Program-made: the position numbers and the translations under genes
Notes under the pieces: model-generated
Seen by the model: only the letters and a program-made list of their open reading frames with translations
Databases searched by the model: none
What the model was told of the DNA's origin: nothing
Part shown: piece after piece, positions 30,063-38,742 of the stretch
Position numbering within the stretch: position 1 is the first letter of the stretch
How the letters are laid out: each line of letters opens with the position of its first letter
Source: Clostridia bacterium
GTDB lineage: Bacteria; Bacillota; Clostridia; RGIG6154
Length of the DNA: 64,000 bases
NCBI GenBank assembly: GCA_017626145.1
Contig: JAGAJK010000024.1
Span: 1-64,000 of the forward strand
Reading direction: 5' to 3'

Positions 30063-30097
30063 AAACGGAAGTATCATACAGATACCCCCGTTTTTTT
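30063..30097 (+). terminator. Terminator after the second AraC gene
   Basis: Stem AAACGG/CCGTTT and GTATC/GATAC with a small bulge, then seven T. It overlaps the accA stop codon on the other strand. Confidence 0.75.
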
Positions 30098-30887
30098 ATT
30101 TTGAGCCGATTTTGCGGAATTTGTTGTATCTTTCGTCAAGCAATTCCTCTTCGGTCATTTTTTCTCTTAATTCTATCTGATTTACAATATAGTCTTTAAG
30201 CTCGGCTGCAATATCCTCAGTTGTACGTTCTGTTTCGGCAATTACTTTTTCAATTACACCGAATTTGTAAAGATTTTCTGCAGTAAATTTAAGTGCTTCT
30301 GCCGCATCAGGTGCTTTTGAAGAATCCTTCCACAGAATTGTTGCACAAGCCTCAGGAGAAATAACCGAATAAATTGCGTTTTCAAGCATTACTACGTTAT
30401 TTGCAACACCAAGTGCCAACGCACCACCACTTCCGCCTTCACCTACAACTACTGAAATAACAGGCGTTTTCAGGGTCATCATTTCGTAAAGATTTTCAGC
30501 AATAGCTTCTCCCTGACCACGTTCCTCTGCTTCGATTCCCGGATATGCTCCCGAGCTTCCTATAAAGCATACAACAGGTCTTTTGAATTTTTCTGCTTCC
30601 TTCATAAGACGGAGAGCTTTTCTGTATCCTTCAGGTGTGGGACATCCGAATTTTCTTCTCATTCTGTCCTCAATTGTATCCCCTCTCTCCATTGCAATAA
30701 CAGTAACTGCCTTTGAACCTATATAACCGATACCGCTTACAATTGCAGGGTCGTCACCGAATCTTCTGTCACCGTGAAGCTCTAAAAAGTTTTCTGTGAG
30801 CATTTTCATATAACCGCCTGCAGAAGGTCTGCCACTTCCTCTTGCCGCACGGGCTCTGTCGTATGCTGTAATATTTGCATTTTCCAT
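30096..30887 (-). CDS. accA: Acetyl-CoA carboxylase carboxyltransferase subunit alpha
   Basis: 263 residues, crotonase-like carboxyltransferase fold, shorter than the E. coli protein (about 319) because the N-terminal extension is minimal. Conserved blocks: YRKALRLMKEAEKFKRPVVC, GSSGAYPGIEAEERGQGEAI and VVGEGGSGGALALGVANNVV. With AccD it moves the carboxyl group from biotin to acetyl-CoA to make malonyl-CoA. It overlaps accD by one base and is the last gene of the fatty-acid operon. The partner genes accB and accC are not in this operon. Confidence 0.95.
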   Translation of the reverse strand: MENANITAYDRARAARGSGRPSAGGYMKMLTENFLELHGDRRFGDDPAIVSGIGYIGSKAVTVIAMERGDTIEDRMRRKFGCPTPEGYRKALRLMKEAEKFKRPVVCFIGSSGAYPGIEAEERGQGEAIAENLYEMMTLKTPVISVVVGEGGSGGALALGVANNVVMLENAIYSVISPEACATILWKDSSKAPDAAEALKFTAENLYKFGVIEKVIAETERTTEDIAAELKDYIVNQIELREKMTEEELLDERYNKFRKIGSK

Positions 30888-31705
30888 TAAGACACCTCCC
30901 GCTTATGCAATACCAGAATTTCTGAAATAGTATCTTTAAGCTTTCCTCTTTCTTCTATCATATCAATAAAACCGTGCTCCAGCATAAACTCCGCACGCTG
31001 AAACCCTTTGGGAAGAGCTTTACCTGTAGTCTGTTCAATAACTCTTGCGCCTGCAAATCCGACCAGAGCATTTGGCTCAGATATAATTATATCTCCAAGC
31101 ATTGCAAAGCTTGCTGTAACACCTCCTGTTGTGGGATCCGTTAAAACAGTTATATACAGATTTCCACCATCGCTGTGTCTTTTAACTGCACCGCTTACCT
31201 TTGCCATCTGCATAAGAGAAATGATGCCCTCCTGCATTCTTGCACCACCCGACGTGGTAAAGCCTATAACAGGAAGCTTTTCCTTTGTCGCCATTTCAAA
31301 AAGACGTGTTATCTTTTCACCTACGACACTTCCCATAGAACCCATCATAAAATTTGAATCCATAACAAAAAGTGCACACTTGCTTCCGTGTATTTCCGCT
31401 GTTCCGCAAACAACGCCCTCATTAAGACCGCTCGCCTTTTTTGCCTTTTCAAGCTTTTCCTCGTATTCAGGAAAATCTATTATGTTTTCGCTGACCAGCT
31501 CGCCGTCACTTTCTGAAAATGTTCCATCATCGGTAATTTTTGCAATTCGCTCCAATGCACCCATTCTCATATATGTGTTACAGGACGGACAAATCATATC
31601 GTTTTCAAAAAGAAGAGAATATTTAATTACCTGACCGCACTTTTTGCAGATTCTCTCTTCCTCGTTATCCTTTTTTAAAAAGCCGAAAATATTTTTAAAA
31701 TTCAT
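30887..31705 (-). CDS. accD: Acetyl-CoA carboxylase carboxyltransferase subunit beta
   Basis: 272 residues with the N-terminal zinc ribbon of AccD (CKKCGQ and CPSC) and the carboxyltransferase core (VMDSNFMMGSMGSVVGEKI, GARMQEGIISLMQMAK). Full length for the family. Encoded between fabZ and accA. In many related genomes accC stands between fabZ and accD; here there are only about 10 bp. Confidence 0.95.
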   Translation of the reverse strand: MNFKNIFGFLKKDNEEERICKKCGQVIKYSLLFENDMICPSCNTYMRMGALERIAKITDDGTFSESDGELVSENIIDFPEYEEKLEKAKKASGLNEGVVCGTAEIHGSKCALFVMDSNFMMGSMGSVVGEKITRLFEMATKEKLPVIGFTTSGGARMQEGIISLMQMAKVSGAVKRHSDGGNLYITVLTDPTTGGVTASFAMLGDIIISEPNALVGFAGARVIEQTTGKALPKGFQRAEFMLEHGFIDMIEERGKLKDTISEILVLHKREVS

Positions 31706-31715
31706 CTATTTTCTC

Positions 31716-32141
31716 CTACTTACTGTTTTTATCGGTAATTGCAAAGGAAAACTCGGCACTTACGCATTTTTTCCCGTTTACATAACCTGTTCCTTTTGCG
31801 AAATAAAATGGCTCTCTTACCTTTACAATTTCGCACTCTGTTTCAAACAAATCCCCCGGAACAACCGTTTTTCTGAATTTAACCTTATCAAGACCTGTAA
31901 AGAAAGGTAATTTATCGTCACCTATACTGTCCTTTAGGCAAACACAAACCGACTGTGCAAGTATTTCGCACAGAATTACCCCGGGCACTACGGGATTGTC
32001 AGGGAAATGCCCCTTTAAGAAAAATTCCTCACCCGTAATTTTCTTTTTTCCGTGAGCTGCATTATCAATAAGCTCCACCTCGTCAAGAAGCAGCATATTA
32101 TCTCTGTGAGGTAATATTTTTTTAATTTCTTCTATATTCAT
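31716..32141 (-). CDS. fabZ: 3-hydroxyacyl-ACP dehydratase FabZ
   Basis: 141 residues starting at ATG 32141, which gives the standard MNIEEIKKILPHRDNMLLLD beginning. The longer frame to 32285 would overlap the end of fabF. The active-site His is in LPHRDNM and the Glu lies in GHFPDNPVVPGVILCEILAQ. It dehydrates 3-hydroxyacyl-ACP. A leader of about 100 bp with two small hairpins separates it from fabF, exactly where accB is usual. Confidence 0.93.
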   Translation of the reverse strand: MNIEEIKKILPHRDNMLLLDEVELIDNAAHGKKKITGEEFFLKGHFPDNPVVPGVILCEILAQSVCVCLKDSIGDDKLPFFTGLDKVKFRKTVVPGDLFETECEIVKVREPFYFAKGTGYVNGKKCVSAEFSFAITDKNSK

Positions 32142-32244
32142 ATTTATAGCCCAGCCACCTTTCCTGCGGCAGAAATGAATTCCGCCTTGCAAAGCCAAAA
32201 TTTTATGAAATAAAATTTTGTGGATAAATCTTATTTTAAACACC

Positions 32245-33474
32245 TCAGATTTTTGCAAAGCCCACACATGCATTATGACCGCCAAAGCCTAAAGATACAG
32301 ACATTGCCATTTCAACCTCTGTTTTGTTTGCTGTGTTTGGTGTGTAATCGAGGTCACATTCTTCGTCCTTTTCACAGTATCCTATTGTGGGAGGAATAAT
32401 ATCTTCCCTTAACGCAAGAATTGCCGCAATGCCTTCGATTGCACCTGCCGCACCAAGTAAATGACCTGTCATAGACTTGGTTGAGCTTACGTGAACCTTG
32501 TAAGCATCTTCACCAAAAGCATTTTTAATTGCCTGTGTTTCTGTTTTGTCGTTAAGAGGTGTGCTCGTTCCGTGAGCATTGATATAAACCTTTTCAGGGT
32601 CAAAGCTTCTGCCCGATTCCTTCAGACAATCGGCAATTGCTCTTCCTGAGCTTTCTGCAGAGCCATCGGGCGCAGTAACGTGAAAAGCGTCACAGGTGCT
32701 GCCGTAGCCTACAACCTCAGCATAAATCTTAGCGCCTCTCTTTACTGCGTGCCCGTATTCTTCAACAATTAAAGCACCTGCACCCTCGCCCATAACAAAA
32801 CCGCCTCTTCTCTTATCAAAAGGAACGGAAGCCGCCGTTTTATCCTCACTTTCCGAAAGTGCCATACAGTTCATAAATGCCGCAACAGCCAATGGAGAAA
32901 TACTTGCTTCAACACCGCCTGCAATGATTGCATCTGCATAGCCGCCCTTTATCGCTCTGTAAGCTTCGCCTATAGCTGTTGTACCCGTTGCACAGGCTGT
33001 ACAAACACCAACGCAGGGACCCTTTGCATTAAACTTTATAGCAAGGTTGCCTGCACCCATATTCACAATCATTTTAGGAATAAAATGCGGTGAAACTCTT
33101 AATGGCCCTCTGTTTAAAAGATTGTTATGCTCATCAATAAATGTATCAAAGCCACCTGTTCCCGAACCGTAATATACACCAAATCTTTCGGGAGCAACAT
33201 TTTCCTCAATTCCGCTGTCCTTTACTGCCTGAGTTGCAGCCGCAATAGCGTATTGAACAAATTTGTCACTTCTTCTTACCTCACCCTTTTCCATATATAA
33301 TAAAGGGTCAAAATCCTTAACCTCTGCCGCTAACTTTACACGGTAATCGGTTGTGTCAAACTTCGTTATATTGTCAATACCGCATTTTCCTGCCTTCAGG
33401 CTTTCCCAGAAAGCTTCAACATTGTTACCTACGGGAGTTATTGCTCCCATACCCGTTATTACTACTCTTTTCAT
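32245..33474 (-). CDS. fabF: 3-oxoacyl-ACP synthase II
   Basis: 409 residues. The catalytic Cys is in CVGVCTACATGTTAIGEA; the two His are in NAHGTSTPLND and SSTKSMTGHLLGAAGAIEG. It elongates acyl-ACP with malonyl-ACP. Starts 11 bp after fabG in the operon. Confidence 0.97.
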   Translation of the reverse strand: MKRVVITGMGAITPVGNNVEAFWESLKAGKCGIDNITKFDTTDYRVKLAAEVKDFDPLLYMEKGEVRRSDKFVQYAIAAATQAVKDSGIEENVAPERFGVYYGSGTGGFDTFIDEHNNLLNRGPLRVSPHFIPKMIVNMGAGNLAIKFNAKGPCVGVCTACATGTTAIGEAYRAIKGGYADAIIAGGVEASISPLAVAAFMNCMALSESEDKTAASVPFDKRRGGFVMGEGAGALIVEEYGHAVKRGAKIYAEVVGYGSTCDAFHVTAPDGSAESSGRAIADCLKESGRSFDPEKVYINAHGTSTPLNDKTETQAIKNAFGEDAYKVHVSSTKSMTGHLLGAAGAIEGIAAILALREDIIPPTIGYCEKDEECDLDYTPNTANKTEVEMAMSVSLGFGGHNACVGFAKI

Positions 33475-33485
33475 CCTTATTCCTC

Positions 33486-34220
33486 CTATATGGCAAGACC
33501 GCCGTCAATGCGGATTACTTCACCGGTTATATAGTCCGATATATCATCTGCCAGGAAGACGGACAGACTTGCAACATCCTCGGGCTTTCCAAGCTTTTTA
33601 AGAGGAATCATTTTCAGAAAGTCCTCTTCTGCATTTAAATCTTTGGTCATATCCGTTGTAATAAAGCCGGGTGCAATTGCATTACAGCAAATATTTTTTG
33701 CCCCAAGCTCCTTGGCAACAGCTTTTGTTAAACCTACTATCCCTGCCTTTGATGCTGAATAATTACTCTGCCCTGCCTGCCCTCTTAAGCCCGAAACAGA
33801 TGAAATATTTATTATCTTGCCGTATTTCTTCTTTATAAAATTTCTTGAGCAGGCTTTAATCATATTAAAGCTTCCCTTAAGGTTAGTATCAATTACATCA
33901 TCAAATTCCGCTTCATCCATAACCGCAAGCAAATTATCTCTTGTTACACCTGCATTATTAACAAGAATATCAATGCTACCCAGGTCATTAATTACAGCCG
34001 CAACTGTTTCTTTACACTCATTAAACTCTGCAACATTGCATTTGTAGATTTTTGCGTTAACCCCAAAGCTTACAGCCTTATCACAAACAGCCTTTGCTTT
34101 TTCTTCACTTCCGTTGTAAATTATTGCAACATTTACTCCGTTTTCGGCATATTTTTCCGCAATTGCCGCTCCGATGCCACGGGATGCTCCTGTTACAAGT
34201 GCAGTTTTTCCCTTAAGCAT
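33486..34220 (-). CDS. fabG: 3-oxoacyl-ACP reductase
   Basis: 244 residues, short-chain dehydrogenase. NADP-binding TGASRGIGAAIAEKYAE and the Ser/Tyr/Lys catalytic set (NISSVSGL, NYSASKAGIVG) are intact. It reduces 3-oxoacyl-ACP. The start overlaps the fabD stop by 8 bp, showing translational coupling. Confidence 0.97.
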   Translation of the reverse strand: MLKGKTALVTGASRGIGAAIAEKYAENGVNVAIIYNGSEEKAKAVCDKAVSFGVNAKIYKCNVAEFNECKETVAAVINDLGSIDILVNNAGVTRDNLLAVMDEAEFDDVIDTNLKGSFNMIKACSRNFIKKKYGKIINISSVSGLRGQAGQSNYSASKAGIVGLTKAVAKELGAKNICCNAIAPGFITTDMTKDLNAEEDFLKMIPLKKLGKPEDVASLSVFLADDISDYITGEVIRIDGGLAI

Positions 34221-35133
34221 TACCTTTCACCGCCTCAATAGTCAGGTTCAATGTATCTTCATCCTGAACCTGATAAACATTAACTTCCTTTGAAATCTTT
34301 TTGATAAGACCGCAAAGGGTTTTCCCCGGACCTACTTCAATAAAATCTGTGTAGCCGTCAGCAATCATATTTTCAATTGTTTCCTGCCACTTAACCGGAC
34401 TTTTCATCTGATTTTCAAGATACCCTTTCACGTCATCACCGTAAGGCTTTGCGGTAAGGTTTGCATAAACAGGTATTTGTGGTGTTTTTATTTCAAAATC
34501 CTCCAAAGCTGATGTAAACTTTTCTGACGCATCCTCCATAAACGGTGAATGAAAAGCCGCACTTACTGCCAAAGGAACAACTCTCCCCCCAAGAGACGCA
34601 ACCTTTTTTGTAAAAGCGTCCACACTTGTTTTCAGACCTGAAACAACAGTCTGACCGGGGCAGTTGTAGTTTACTGCATAAAGCTTTTCAAAGGCTGACG
34701 CTTCCTTTGTTACGGTATCGGAATCAAGCTTCATTACAGCACACATAGCGGTATCTGCCTTTTTTGACGCTTCATTCATAAACAAACCCCTTTTTGTTAC
34801 AATTTCAAAGCCGTCCTTCAGTGAATATGCCTTTGCATAACCAAGTGCTGCGATTTCGCCAAGAGAAAAGCCTGCAACACCATCGGCATAAATACCAGCT
34901 TCATTTAAAAGTGCCGCTCCCGCCATTTCTGCAAGATAAATGCATGGCTGTGTGTTTGCAGTATTTTTAAGCTCTTCTTCGCTACCAAAGAAAGACTGAT
35001 TCTTCGTACCTTCACGAACTTTTTCAGCTTCATCATATATATTCTCAGCAACAGTGCCCATATCGTAGAAGGATTTACCCATTCCGCTGTACTGTGCACC
35101 CTGCCCCGAAAAAACAAATGCTATTTTACCCAT
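34213..35133 (-). CDS. fabD: Malonyl-CoA:ACP transacylase
   Basis: 306 residues. Nucleophile Ser in GVAGFSLGEIAALGYA, catalytic His in AVSAAFHSPFMEDA, and N-terminal FVFSGQGAQYSGMG. It loads malonyl groups on ACP. Overlaps fabK by 13 bp and fabG by 8 bp. Confidence 0.97.
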   Translation of the reverse strand: MGKIAFVFSGQGAQYSGMGKSFYDMGTVAENIYDEAEKVREGTKNQSFFGSEEELKNTANTQPCIYLAEMAGAALLNEAGIYADGVAGFSLGEIAALGYAKAYSLKDGFEIVTKRGLFMNEASKKADTAMCAVMKLDSDTVTKEASAFEKLYAVNYNCPGQTVVSGLKTSVDAFTKKVASLGGRVVPLAVSAAFHSPFMEDASEKFTSALEDFEIKTPQIPVYANLTAKPYGDDVKGYLENQMKSPVKWQETIENMIADGYTDFIEVGPGKTLCGLIKKISKEVNVYQVQDEDTLNLTIEAVKGNA

Positions 35134-36077
35134 TTTGACGCTCCGTTCAATATATTTTCTGTTTCAATGAAAATTTCGTCTATCATTTCCTTTGCAGACT
35201 GCTCCTTATTGACAAGACCTGATATCTGTCCTGCAAGAAAGCATCCTTTTTTATCGTCTCCGTCAACTACAGCCGCCTTAAGTGACCCTACAGCCATCTT
35301 TTCCAGCTCGTCGTCGGTTATATTCATATTATATTCTTCTTTTGCGTAGCTTCTTGAAAAAGCAGTTTTCAGGCTTCTTACAGGATGACCAAGCCTTCTG
35401 CCTGTTACTATAGTTGAAGTATCGTGTGCCTTTATAAGCTTATCCTTGTATGTACGGCTTATACAACATTCATCTGCAAGTAAAAATCTTGTGCCAACCT
35501 GCACGCCCACAGCACCAAGCATAAATGCCGCCGCAACACCTCTGCCGTCTGCAATACCGCCTGCACCAATAACGGGAATTGTTACAGCATCGCAAACCTG
35601 AGGAATAAGTGACATTGTCATCATTTCACCAACGTGACCGCCCGATTCTCCGCCTTCCGCAATAACTGCGTCAGCACCGCTTCTTTCCATTAACTTAGCA
35701 AGTGACGCCGAAGCCACAACGGGAATAACCTTTATTCCTGCTTCCTTCCACATAGAAACGTATTTTGCAGGATTACCTGCACCTGTTGTTACAACTGCAA
35801 CCTTTTTTTGTGCCAGAAGCTTTGCAATTTCGTCTACGTTTTCACCCATAAGCATAACATTTACACCAAACGGTTTATCCGTTAAGGAAAATGCTTTGTC
35901 AATTTCTTCTTCAATTTTTTCTACATTACCGCTTGCCGCGGAAATAATACCCAATCCTCCTGCGTTTGACACGGCAGCTGCAAGCCTTGCATCGGAAATA
36001 TGTGCCATACCGCCCTGAAGAACAGGTTTTTCAATTCCCAGCAAATCGCAAATTGGTGTATAAATCACTTCACCCAC
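35121..36077 (-). CDS. fabK: Enoyl-ACP reductase II (FMN-dependent)
   Basis: 318 residues, TIM-barrel flavoprotein of the nitronate monooxygenase-like group. It has LQGGMAHISDARLAAAVSNAG, the FMN phosphate segment VIGAGGIADGRGVAAAFMLG, and AEGGESGGHVG. FabK performs the last reduction of the elongation cycle and replaces triclosan-sensitive FabI in many Firmicutes. Separated from acpP by 275 bp holding a structured repeat. Confidence 0.94.
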   Translation of the reverse strand: MGEVIYTPICDLLGIEKPVLQGGMAHISDARLAAAVSNAGGLGIISAASGNVEKIEEEIDKAFSLTDKPFGVNVMLMGENVDEIAKLLAQKKVAVVTTGAGNPAKYVSMWKEAGIKVIPVVASASLAKLMERSGADAVIAEGGESGGHVGEMMTMSLIPQVCDAVTIPVIGAGGIADGRGVAAAFMLGAVGVQVGTRFLLADECCISRTYKDKLIKAHDTSTIVTGRRLGHPVRSLKTAFSRSYAKEEYNMNITDDELEKMAVGSLKAAVVDGDDKKGCFLAGQISGLVNKEQSAKEMIDEIFIETENILNGASKWVK

Positions 36078-36194
36078 AACCTTTCAATAATGGAATGTAA
36101 AAATAGTTCAGACCGCAAAAAGCCCCTATTATAATTAATATACAGATAGTCAAAACAAAAAATAATATAGTTTAAAATCTCAATACATTCGGTT

Positions 36195-36345
36195 TTATTT
36201 GTCCATCTGTGACTTTTTGCTATGAAGAAACTTCACCTAACTCGCTGTACCACGTACAGCTTCGGGTACCCGTAAATACCTGTAACCACAGGTATTTACA
36301 GTTCAGTTTCTTCATTCTGAAATATTTTTCCTATCCCATTAGCAA
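36195..36345 (-). repeat. Three-stem structured intergenic repeat, copy B, inside the fab operon
   Basis: Minus-strand orientation, so it would be transcribed with acpP and fabK. P1 pairs 36305-36313 with 36224-36232 (GAAGAAACT/AGTTTCTTC). P2 pairs 36288-36299 with 36272-36283 (GTAAATACCTGT/ACAGGTATTTAC). P3 pairs 36254-36260 with 36244-36250 (GCTGTAC/GTACAGC). It shares GTACCCGAA and ATAGGAAAAAT with copy A while stem bases differ in compensating ways. No ORF in the acpP-fabK gap. Confidence 0.8.
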
Positions 36346-36352
36346 ACTCTTC

Positions 36353-36577
36353 TTATTCAGCCTTTTTAGCATCAATGTATGCTGCAAGCTCTTTTACTGA
36401 CTTACCAACTTCCTGAGCCTTGATTTCAATGCCGAATTCGTCTTCCATTTCCATCATAATTTCAACAGTGTCAAGGGAATCAACGTCAAGCTCTTCAAAA
36501 GTTGTTTCGTCACCGATTTCTGCCACATCCATTTCAAGATGCTCTGCCAATAATTCTTTTACCTTTTCGATTGTCAT
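36353..36577 (-). CDS. acpP: Acyl carrier protein
   Basis: 74 acidic residues. The phosphopantetheine Ser is in ELDVDSLDTVEIMMEME. ATG 36577 is preceded by GGAGGTC at correct spacing; the frame extends five codons further upstream without a better site. It carries acyl chains for the Fab enzymes encoded around it. Confidence 0.97.
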   Translation of the reverse strand: MTIEKVKELLAEHLEMDVAEIGDETTFEELDVDSLDTVEIMMEMEDEFGIEIKAQEVGKSVKELAAYIDAKKAE

Positions 36578-36621
36578 AATAAAGACCTCCATTATTTTTT
36601 AAAATTTATATTAATTGTTAA

Positions 36622-37575
36622 TTAATACTCTATCAAACAAGCTGCACTCGAAAGTCCTCCACCAAATGCACAAATAGCTATTTTGTCACCTTTTTTAAGC
36701 TTACCGGACTTATATAATTCATCAAAAGCTATCGCCACACTTGCCGCAGAAGTGTTTCCGAGCTTTTGTATATTTACAATGAATTTTTCTTTTGCAATTT
36801 TAAGTCTTTTCGCGGCAAATTCAATAATTCTCGTATTTGCCTGATGAGGAACTATGTAGTCTATATCTTCTAAGGATACCCCTGCTTTGTCAGCAACATA
36901 TTTTACATCTTCAACCATTTTGCTTACAGCAAACTTAAAGGTTTCCTGACCGTCCATAAACACATAAGATTTTTTCTTTTCCTTCTTGTAAAAAGGTGAA
37001 TCACCCTGAAAGCCCGGAATTTCTATTACTTCGTTGCCGCCACTTGTGTAAAGCCTGGATGCAAGATAGTTTTCACCTTTTGTTATTACCATAGCACCTG
37101 CACCGTCACCGAAAATAACACAGGTTGAACGGTCGGTCCAGTCAATTATGTTACTCATTCTTTCAGCACCTATTACAAGCGCATTTTTATAATTTCCGCC
37201 CAAAATATAGTTTTTAGCCGTTTCCAGGGCAAACAAAAATCCGCTGCAGGCTGAATTTATATCAAAAGCGGGACAGGATGCACCTATTGCTCTCTGTACA
37301 GACCCTGCCACAGTAGGACACAGTAGCTCATTTGACACAGATGCCGCTACAATTAAATCAATGTCCCCGGGTGTAACGGACGCAGATTCAAGTGCCGATT
37401 TTGCCGCTTTAATTGCCATATCCGCAGTAGTTTCATCTGTAGAAATACGACGTTCACTTACTCCTACTCTCTGAGTAATCCATTCATCAGAGGTTTCTAC
37501 CATCTTTGATAAATCGTCATTCGTTACAACCAAAGGTGGCACATATGCACCTGTTCCCAAAATTTTTATTGCCAT
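36622..37575 (-). CDS. fabH: 3-oxoacyl-ACP synthase III
   Basis: 317 residues from ATG 37575 (AGAGGGC upstream), beginning MAIKILGTGAYVPPLVVTND. Catalytic Cys in DINSACSGFLFALE, His in VPHQANTRI, Asn in LGNTSAASV. It starts fatty-acid synthesis from acetyl-CoA and malonyl-ACP. First biosynthetic gene of the operon; its leader holds three tandem operator-like units, so it is a likely control point. Confidence 0.96.
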   Translation of the reverse strand: MAIKILGTGAYVPPLVVTNDDLSKMVETSDEWITQRVGVSERRISTDETTADMAIKAAKSALESASVTPGDIDLIVAASVSNELLCPTVAGSVQRAIGASCPAFDINSACSGFLFALETAKNYILGGNYKNALVIGAERMSNIIDWTDRSTCVIFGDGAGAMVITKGENYLASRLYTSGGNEVIEIPGFQGDSPFYKKEKKKSYVFMDGQETFKFAVSKMVEDVKYVADKAGVSLEDIDYIVPHQANTRIIEFAAKRLKIAKEKFIVNIQKLGNTSAASVAIAFDELYKSGKLKKGDKIAICAFGGGLSSAACLIEY

Positions 37576-37599: not shown

Positions 37600-37778
37600 T
37601 AGCACACAGTGTGCTGTATTTTTTTTACAGGGATTTGCAATCCCTGACAATTTTTACCTCGTTTCAGCACAATGTGTGCTGTGTTTTTTTTACGGGAAAC
37701 AAAGTTTCCCGATAATATATCTTCTTCAGCACAGTGTGTGCTCTATTTTTTTAAAACAGAGAAAACCTCTGTTTTAAA
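37600..37778. promoter_or_regulatory. Three tandem operator-hairpin units before fabH
   Basis: Three units of about 64, 62 and 52 bp. Each begins with a palindrome: AGCACACAGTGTGCT (37601-37615), CAGCACAATGTGTGCTG (37665-37681), CAGCACAGTGTGTGCT (37727-37742). Each palindrome is followed on the plus strand by a T-run and then a small hairpin with a different sequence (GGGATT/AATCCC; GGGAAAC/GTTTCCC; AAAACAGAG/CTCTGTTTT). The same palindrome overlaps the tetR promoter start. They are probable TetR operators. No clear separate fabH promoter is visible here. Confidence 0.75.
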
Positions 37779-38357
37779 TTAGTTTTTCAATCCATCAAAC
37801 AACAGTCCGAAGCTGTATCTGAAATTGGTTTTAGCTTCCTCAAGCGAAAAATTTCTCGCAACAGCATCCGCATTGAAGCCACGGCAAAAGCACCATATAG
37901 AATAGCTCAGCTTATCAGAATCCACATCCTTTATATGCTTCTTTGCTTTTGCATAATCTATAAGCTTTTTAATTTCGCCCATCCACCACTTAAAATTGCT
38001 TTGTGACAATGAATCGTGTTCAAAAACATAATGATTAAACTGCTTTTTCTGGTTATAAGACGTGAGAAGTGTTTTTTCAAGCATATCAATAACCTGCTCA
38101 AAAAAATCTCTGCTGTCGTCTATACCGCCTGAAATACTTTCTCTTACTTTCATAGTTGTATTGGTATATACAATCTGAAGAACTTCATCAATATTATGAA
38201 AACGGTTGTAGAAAACACGATTTGTTATATCAAGCTTCTGTAAAATCTGTCTTACGGTGATTTCCTTTGCCCCCACCTGTGTAACCAAAGCTTCGGCGGC
38301 AGAAATAATTTTTTCAGACATTTCGTCCTTTATAAGATTATCGTTTTTATCCGCCAC
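37779..38357 (-). CDS. TetR family regulator of the fatty-acid operon
   Basis: 192 residues with GTG start at 38357 (GGAGGTGATT upstream). The N-terminal helix-turn-helix is ITVRQILQKLDITNRVFYNRF; the helical C-terminal part is of the usual TetR size. It lies at the head of the fab operon, and the palindrome over its own promoter recurs three times before fabH. Autoregulation and control of fatty-acid synthesis follow by inference; the ligand, possibly an acyl-CoA or acyl-ACP, is unknown. FapR or the MarR-type FabT would be more common in this position. Confidence 0.88.
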   Translation of the reverse strand: MADKNDNLIKDEMSEKIISAAEALVTQVGAKEITVRQILQKLDITNRVFYNRFHNIDEVLQIVYTNTTMKVRESISGGIDDSRDFFEQVIDMLEKTLLTSYNQKKQFNHYVFEHDSLSQSNFKWWMGEIKKLIDYAKAKKHIKDVDSDKLSYSIWCFCRGFNADAVARNFSLEEAKTNFRYSFGLLFDGLKN

Positions 38358-38373
38358 ACAATCACCTCCGTTA

Positions 38374-38396
38374 CATCAGCACACGTTGTGCTGATG
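38374..38396. promoter_or_regulatory. TetR operator at its own promoter
   Basis: Perfect palindrome with core CAGCACACGTTGTGCTG, extended to 10 bp per arm around CGT. It starts just downstream of the -10 box, covering the transcription start. Same half-site as the three copies before fabH. Confidence 0.8.
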
Positions 38397-38398
38397 AC

Positions 38399-38428
38399 AT
38401 TGTATCACACACAAGCTCTGTTTGTCAA
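38399..38428 (-). promoter_or_regulatory. Promoter of tetR and probably the fab operon
   Basis: Minus-strand TTGACA (38428-38423), 18 bp, TACAAT (38404-38399). Confidence 0.8.
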
Positions 38429-38442
38429 GGTTTTTGTAAAAA

Positions 38443-38742
38443 AGAGTTGCTACATAGCAACTCTCAGCGTGTCGATAAGTTTATCGACACGCTGAACAGA
38501 CAAGGAAAAAGGAAGTTAAATTTTTCGAACACGAAATCGTCGGCGTATGTGGATACGCTAGAGTTCGTGTTCGGAAAAAACAAGCGAAATCGGCTAAAAA
38601 TATTGATTTTTAGCCGATCCTATATAGTAGATATTAACTTTTTTAAATTATACTTTCAATTTAATTTTAAATAAATAAAAAATTCTTCGCTTGTGGTTGA
38701 ACGACTTTTTCGATAGTCTAAGAGTTGCTACATAGCAACTCT
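38443..38742. repeat. Structured repeat copy C flanked by 22-bp direct repeats
   Basis: The palindrome AGAGTTGCTACATAGCAACT occurs at both ends (38443 and 38721), the right one overlapping the end of the next gene. Between lie a GCGTGTCGATAA/TTATCGACACGC hairpin and a two-stem version of the repeat family: P1 CGAACACGAA (38526-38535) with TTCGTGTTCG (38564-38573), and P3 GCGTAT with ATACGC (38543-38558). P2 is missing. A third hairpin, ATCGGCTAAAAA/TTTTTAGCCGAT, lies near 38588-38617. AT-rich spacer follows. No ORF. Direct repeats at the ends could mark an insertion. Confidence 0.65.

Follow-up and report, generated by a model that had tools for sequence, protein, structure and literature searches.

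Tandem hairpin-operator units between tetR and fabH in Clostridia: a conserved regulatory architecture and a possible repressor-gated terminator

Background

FapR is the usual regulator of fatty-acid synthesis in Gram-positive bacteria (PMC5052256). Action of repressors beyond the promoter is also known: LacI, PurR, GalR, CcpA, and CodY are described as roadblocks in bacteria, and polymerase stalled at such sites is removed by Mfd (PMC4132739, PMC10310618). In yeast, RNA polymerase I is stopped by Reb1 or Nsi1, and fast release of the RNA takes place only with a hairpin upstream; a random 9-bp hairpin works as well, the hairpin sequence being unimportant (PMC12366685).

Here, a regulatory architecture of hairpins and operators between a tetR gene and the first gene of a fatty-acid operon is described. 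It is real and conserved, and as far as found it is undescribed in the literature searched. The search for a clostridial TetR at fabH yielded nothing specific, and an earlier description is possible in subscription papers, most of which were outside its scope.

Results and discussion

The tetR-fabH region

The window, a stretch of 64,000 nucleotides from a Clostridia bacterium of the gut (contig JAGAJK010000024.1), contains the following features, given in the order of transcription.

38399..38428, minus strand: tetR promoter, TTGACA-18-TACAAT with TG before the -10 region, a near-consensus design common to relatives
38377..38393, minus strand: operator at the tetR promoter, perfect CAGCACA-n3-TGTGCTG, 6 bp behind the -10 region
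37779..38357, minus strand: tetR, start codon GTG at 38357, regulator of 192 amino acids with a TetR fold (AlphaFold model and TetR matches)
37750..37778, minus strand: hairpin of unit 1, 12-bp stem with A-T outer pairs, directly behind the tetR stop codon
37727..37743, minus strand: operator of unit 1, one mismatch to CAGCACA-n3-TGTGCTG (pattern match)
37693..37711, minus strand: hairpin of unit 2, CGGGAAAC-TTT-GTTTCCCG
37682..37692, minus strand: A-rich linker of unit 2, AAAAAAAA in the mRNA
37665..37681, minus strand: operator of unit 2, perfect CAGCACA-n3-TGTGCTG (pattern match)
37628..37646, minus strand: hairpin of unit 3, CAGGGATT-GCA-AATCCCTG
37617..37627, minus strand: A-rich linker of unit 3
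37600..37616, minus strand: operator of unit 3, one mismatch to CAGCACA-n3-TGTGCTG, with 24-25 nt between its end and the start codon of fabH
36622..37575, minus strand: fabH, first gene of the fatty-acid operon, ATG at 37575 (TIGR00747 above cut-off)
30096..36592, minus strand: remaining operon with genes for acyl carrier protein, fabK, fabD, fabG, fabF, then fabZ-, accD-, and accA-like genes (the last three assigned from translations only)

The four palindromes of the preliminary description were thus recovered, two perfect and two with one mismatch each. Its spacing of about 63 bp within the array was measured as 65 and 62 bp, and hairpins of different sequence were found in every unit, as described, with stems of 8 to 12 bp. 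The first operator had been placed over the tetR start site. It overlies the probable transcription start of the strong minus-strand promoter; the start codon is not covered.

In the 2.78-Mb genome (95% complete), the pattern AGCACAnnnTGTGCT has exactly four matches, one at the tetR promoter and three between tetR and fabH, all within a stretch of 0.8 kb. Genome-wide occurrence of the palindrome at unrelated genes had been named as a possible refutation, and all four exact matches are located at this locus. The reversed control pattern gave no match in the whole genome, and eight near-matches with one mismatch were detected on other contigs.

The intergenic region upstream of tetR harbors another palindrome, AGAGTTGCTACATAGCAACTCT, in two identical copies (38443-38464 and 38721-38742; none expected), and two further long inverted repeats lie between them (38464-38495 and 38521-38578).

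The regulator and its operator

The AlphaFold model of the tetR product (pLDDT 87) shows an N-terminal helix-turn-helix and an all-helical TetR fold, and its best structural matches are diverse TetR regulators with 14-18% identity. FadR structures are among the weaker matches, at about 17% identity. Pfam TetR_N was detected with an E-value of 4e-5 and 23.6 bits, slightly below the cut-off of 24 bits. None of the NCBIfam equivalogs came near its cut-off, so that no equivalog-level match to FadR, FabR, DesT, or FasR was obtained, and the FapR model NF003359 was not matched by the protein, which matches TetR models.

Public genomes supplied 80 loci with relatives of the regulator, and a match was present in 28 of 391 Clostridia genomes. 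The analysed set comprised 107 loci, all from Clostridia; in a phylum-wide sample of 299 genomes, no TetR relative was matched beyond that of the window itself. The palindrome, matching at 10 or more of 12 positions, is present upstream of tetR at its promoter in 100 of the 107 loci, while matches of equal quality occur elsewhere in the same loci at 0.05 per kb. The tetR promoters of the relatives are near-consensus as well, 55 of 100 matching the consensus at 12 of 12 positions, and the operator most often lies 6 nt behind the -10 region. Because of this conservation at the promoter of the regulator gene, the palindrome is almost certainly the operator of this TetR, as had been proposed.

Some loci have peculiarities. 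Many of those in which the next gene is acyl-CoA-synthetase-like (L030, L037, L059, L069, L080, L088, and others) have two operators about 21-34 bp apart, not one, upstream of tetR. In L006/L112 (G056:C36:174056-174628), tetR contains an in-frame TAA about 24 residues before the expected end, with promoter and operators intact. L160 (G400:C16:13105) has a consensus promoter, a hairpin, and the same operator in front of a gene without relation to tetR (about 343 codons), which may be a further target or a chance occurrence.

A unit of hairpin, linker, and operator

In dozens of related bacteria the block of hairpin, A-rich linker, and operator is seen, and many of them carry one to four copies of it between tetR and the next gene. 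For analysis of this block, 62 non-redundant internal operators were used, the 34-bp arrays of L098 and L102 described below being set aside. A stem was counted if it had at least six Watson-Crick pairs and its base was 7-15 nt before the operator. Such stems were found at 43 of the 62 internal operators, with 3.8 expected from dinucleotide shuffles, and at 2 of 117 operators of tetR promoters; the 7-15 nt range was picked after viewing loci, but a choice of this kind could not produce an effect of anything like this size. No clear hairpin is present at the other 19 internal operators.

The sequences of the stems differ in 40 of the 43 units. Since varying stem and loop lengths defeat ungapped consensus folding, which registered only the operator in 32 units, pairing was tested unit by unit. 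The two arms pair at 97% within their own unit and at 47% if arms are swapped between units. In 42 of the 43 units, the operator lies 10-14 nt behind the outermost G-C pair, and the linker is almost wholly A and T with the A-run densest beside the hairpin. In the operator stem, no compensatory change was seen, as a protein site would predict. What is conserved of the hairpin is its structure, and of the operator its sequence; the simplest reading is that the former works as RNA and the latter as a protein site. These data strongly indicate a single conserved unit composed of hairpin, linker, and operator. The Rfam search revealed nothing near any gathering score, and a known regulatory RNA family was rejected for the units.

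The unit is portable, as judged from L058 and L067: in both, a hairpin-operator unit is located about 4.5 kb beyond the start of tetR, inside a gene row without adjacent tetR, and in L067 it precedes an acyl-CoA-synthetase-like gene.

A stem on either side of a single-stranded A-rich stretch, behind a repressor gene that comes first in its operon, could also serve RNA processing. The layout of tetR and fab resembles that of cggR-gapA in Bacillus subtilis. Roadblocked or cleaved tetR RNA would end close to the hairpin and be shielded by it from 3' decay, the A/U-rich linker would be an RNase site, and a hairpin formed by the operator would guard the 5' end of the fab mRNA, giving different levels of tetR and fab. 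For such a function, up to four units are unneeded, and the absence of compensatory variation argues that the operator stem is kept as a DNA site; processing is therefore a rather improbable explanation.

The orientation of the A-rich stretch bears on termination. A T-run had been noted in each repeat and is indeed present on the plus strand. Transcription of tetR and fabH runs on the minus strand, and in their mRNA the T-run becomes an A-run, the order in each unit being hairpin, A-run, operator. Terminator-like sites were not detected on the minus strand of the window, and a U-run on the sense strand was found in 1 of 23 later units and in 8 of 39 first units of the relatives. An intrinsic terminator in sense direction was rejected, as the U-run is absent from the transcribed strand in the window and rare in relatives.

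On the opposite strand, the operator palindrome followed by the T-run could end transcription entering from the fab side. In the window, good plus-strand terminators are formed by operator and T-run. Five terminator-like sites were counted on that strand, compared to 0.4 expected, and 46 of 62 units pass the same loose rule. Shuffled linkers, however, already yield 35.5 of 62, the A-run in relatives hugs the hairpin and not the operator, and a source of antisense transcription was not seen. As the variable hairpin would also be left without explanation, antisense termination appears quite improbable.

Internal operators in the transcribed leader

Using a matrix built from 99 tetR promoters, no tetR-like promoter was found at internal operators; the best score was at most 4, compared to 13.7 for the 5th percentile of tetR promoters. 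Between the end of the last operator and the start of fabH there are usually 11-39 nt, too few to hold a promoter. TAAAAA in the linker was considered as a -10 element and rejected, since it ends in A, not in T, in 37 of 43 cases. Hidden promoters at internal operators were rejected on the strength of the matrix search. Without a promoter of their own, the internal operators are most likely part of the leader in a tetR-fab mRNA and would act on elongation as roadblocks, the arrangement being that of a repressor site within a region that is presumably transcribed.

Spacing within arrays has a mode at 62-67 bp, with 34, 46, 49, 56, 69, 75, 76, and 85 bp also occurring. The preliminary description suggested that the sites share one face of the DNA and could allow looping to the distal tetR operator. 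Neither idea was supported: the first internal operator lies between 632 and 824 bp from that of tetR, with no helical phase (at 10.5 bp, R 0.13 and P about 0.5), and spacings outside the mode are not significantly phased either (P about 0.18). Looping by helical phase was rejected on both grounds.

Ordinary repression from multiple operators, by way of an unrecognised promoter, cooperative binding, or looping and with incidental hairpins, was weighed against these results. Multiple operators are common among repressors, the spacing mode is narrow, and L098 and L102 have a promoter-like sequence, TG-n-TATAAT, after operators spaced by 34 bp. In other loci, however, no promoter was found at or after internal operators and no phase with the tetR operator, and the hairpins hold their position while their sequence changes. 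This explanation is very improbable.

The arrays with 34-bp spacing are apparently of a different design from the hairpin units. In L098 and L102 (also L118 and L120), four operators with exactly this spacing are located 47-164 bp behind the tetR stop and before fabH; only the first is accompanied by a hairpin, and the promoter-like sequence follows the last. Hairpin-bearing units are never less than 46 bp apart, while the 34-bp arrays are mostly hairpinless, which suggests that a polymerase would have to fit between units.

Distribution of arrays and regulated genes

A search of relatives for the palindrome at fab genes, as had been proposed, revealed at least two internal operators in 16 of 28 fabH-linked loci, compared to 1 of 72 others; the Fisher value (3e-10) overstates this link, because on the TetR tree it comes down to four to seven independent pairs and is not significant by itself. 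At least 13 changes of array state are required on the tree, and the copy number of units is thus labile. Four units are present in L074 and L082, and L109 reaches this number if two more, located about 1.1-1.2 kb away from the start of tetR, are included.

The gene next to tetR is AMP-binding acyl-CoA-synthetase-like in 40 loci, fabH in 34, and of the DegV family, which includes fatty-acid-binding proteins, in 11. FMN/NADH oxidoreductase (six loci) and iron alcohol dehydrogenase (five loci) are rarer.

Of the 391 genomes, 128 encode FapR, and the 28 with the TetR all lack it (9.2 with FapR expected; Fisher P = 1e-5, a value inflated by the relatedness of the genomes). Several families (f11, f15, f18, f29) include genomes of both kinds. 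The genome of the window, too, is devoid of FapR, showing just a weak match to the DNA-binding domain (E-value 6e-6). That the two regulators share no genome in this set suggests that this TetR is a lipid regulator separate from FapR in some of the Clostridia, in line with the distinct fab control system suggested before.

A possible mechanism

The evidence for the operator and for the unit is strong; the mechanism proposed here is open to direct testing. A roadblock by TetR combined with hairpin-driven release of the transcript in the tetR-fabH leader is the preferred explanation, with a probability somewhat below even. TetR would repress its own promoter by binding across the transcription start, and it would also bind the three leader operators and there block RNA polymerase before it enters the fab operon. 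As the polymerase meets bound TetR, the RNA hairpin would fold behind it, and the encounter would most likely become transcript release. A unit of this kind would be a terminator without U-run, armed only with the repressor bound. Repeated units would multiply the block, and tetR could be expressed with fab still silent. TetR would be freed from the DNA by a ligand, for which the gene neighborhood suggests an acyl compound, probably a thioester, and the polymerase would read through. Gated termination is favored because a hairpin lacking the U-run would not terminate alone, and a pause supplied by the repressor could allow release.

Several points count against it. The A-runs in the units do not provide the usual weak hybrid of terminators. 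A clear hairpin is missing at 19 of the 62 internal operators and in the 34-bp arrays of L098 and L102. In addition, with a stop about 15 bp before the site, as at Reb1, the end of the RNA would be inside the 3' arm of the hairpin, which would then be incomplete; gated termination needs the polymerase to come closer to TetR. Alternatively, the hairpin acts as the polymerase passes, as ratchet or pause.

In that case the internal operators would be roadblocks with non-terminating hairpins, working either as a ratchet against backsliding, by which the polymerase ousts TetR, or as a hold that prevents rebinding of TetR. With a distance of 10-14 nt, the hairpin would be complete at the moment when the active site arrives at the edge of the operator, as estimated from the geometry of RNA polymerase. 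A nascent hairpin is reported to limit movement of the polymerase in both directions (Toulme 2005, cited in PMC10310618). It is hard to explain, on the other hand, why up to four repressor sites should each be paired with a weakening device, and a pause consensus was not found by inspection of the units by eye. The ratchet or hold is considered unlikely, if worth keeping in mind, and gated termination remains the preferred reading.

If gated termination is true, a repressor and an RNA hairpin act jointly on elongating polymerase in a natural bacterial circuit, and gut Clostridia without FapR gain a route to control membrane lipid synthesis.

Comparison with known systems

With the TetR-type lipid regulators FadR, FabR, DesT, and FasR, the regulator of the window has the TetR fold and lipid genes as neighbors in common; it differs by its identity of about 17% to solved FadR and by the lack of an equivalog near cut-off. 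To our knowledge, internal hairpin-operator arrays are not known in these systems. The FapR regulon (PMC5052256) likewise has an autoregulated repressor at fatty-acid synthesis genes, but protein family and operator are different, and the two regulators do not co-occur in the 391 genomes.

The roadblocks formed by LacI, PurR, GalR, CcpA, and CodY resemble the units in that a repressor downstream of the start site blocks elongation; in the literature consulted, neither a paired hairpin nor tandem hairpin-operator units were found described for them.

The terminators of RNA polymerase I with Reb1, Nsi1, or TTF1 share with the units a hairpin of free sequence, an A/T-rich stretch, and a DNA-bound protein stopping the polymerase, and fail-safe copies of these terminators carry hairpins likewise (PMC12366685). 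The polymerase there is eukaryotic, and the coding strand is T-rich, not A-rich as in the units. Polymerase I stops 15 bp before the site with the hairpin 20 nt further upstream, much wider than the 10-14 nt of the units. Its roadblock is constitutive, whereas the TetR units are proposed to be controlled by a ligand. Tentatively, and with less confidence than for the mechanism at this locus, the units may be regarded as modular and repeatable repressor-gated terminators, each consisting of a free-sequence hairpin, an A-tract, and an operator 10-14 nt downstream with no U-run, and thus as a bacterial counterpart of hairpin-plus-roadblock termination by polymerase I, placed in series to grade a fatty-acid operon. 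If so, a principle found so far with polymerase I could be tested in a simple bacterium, for which natural versions with one, two, three, and four units are available.
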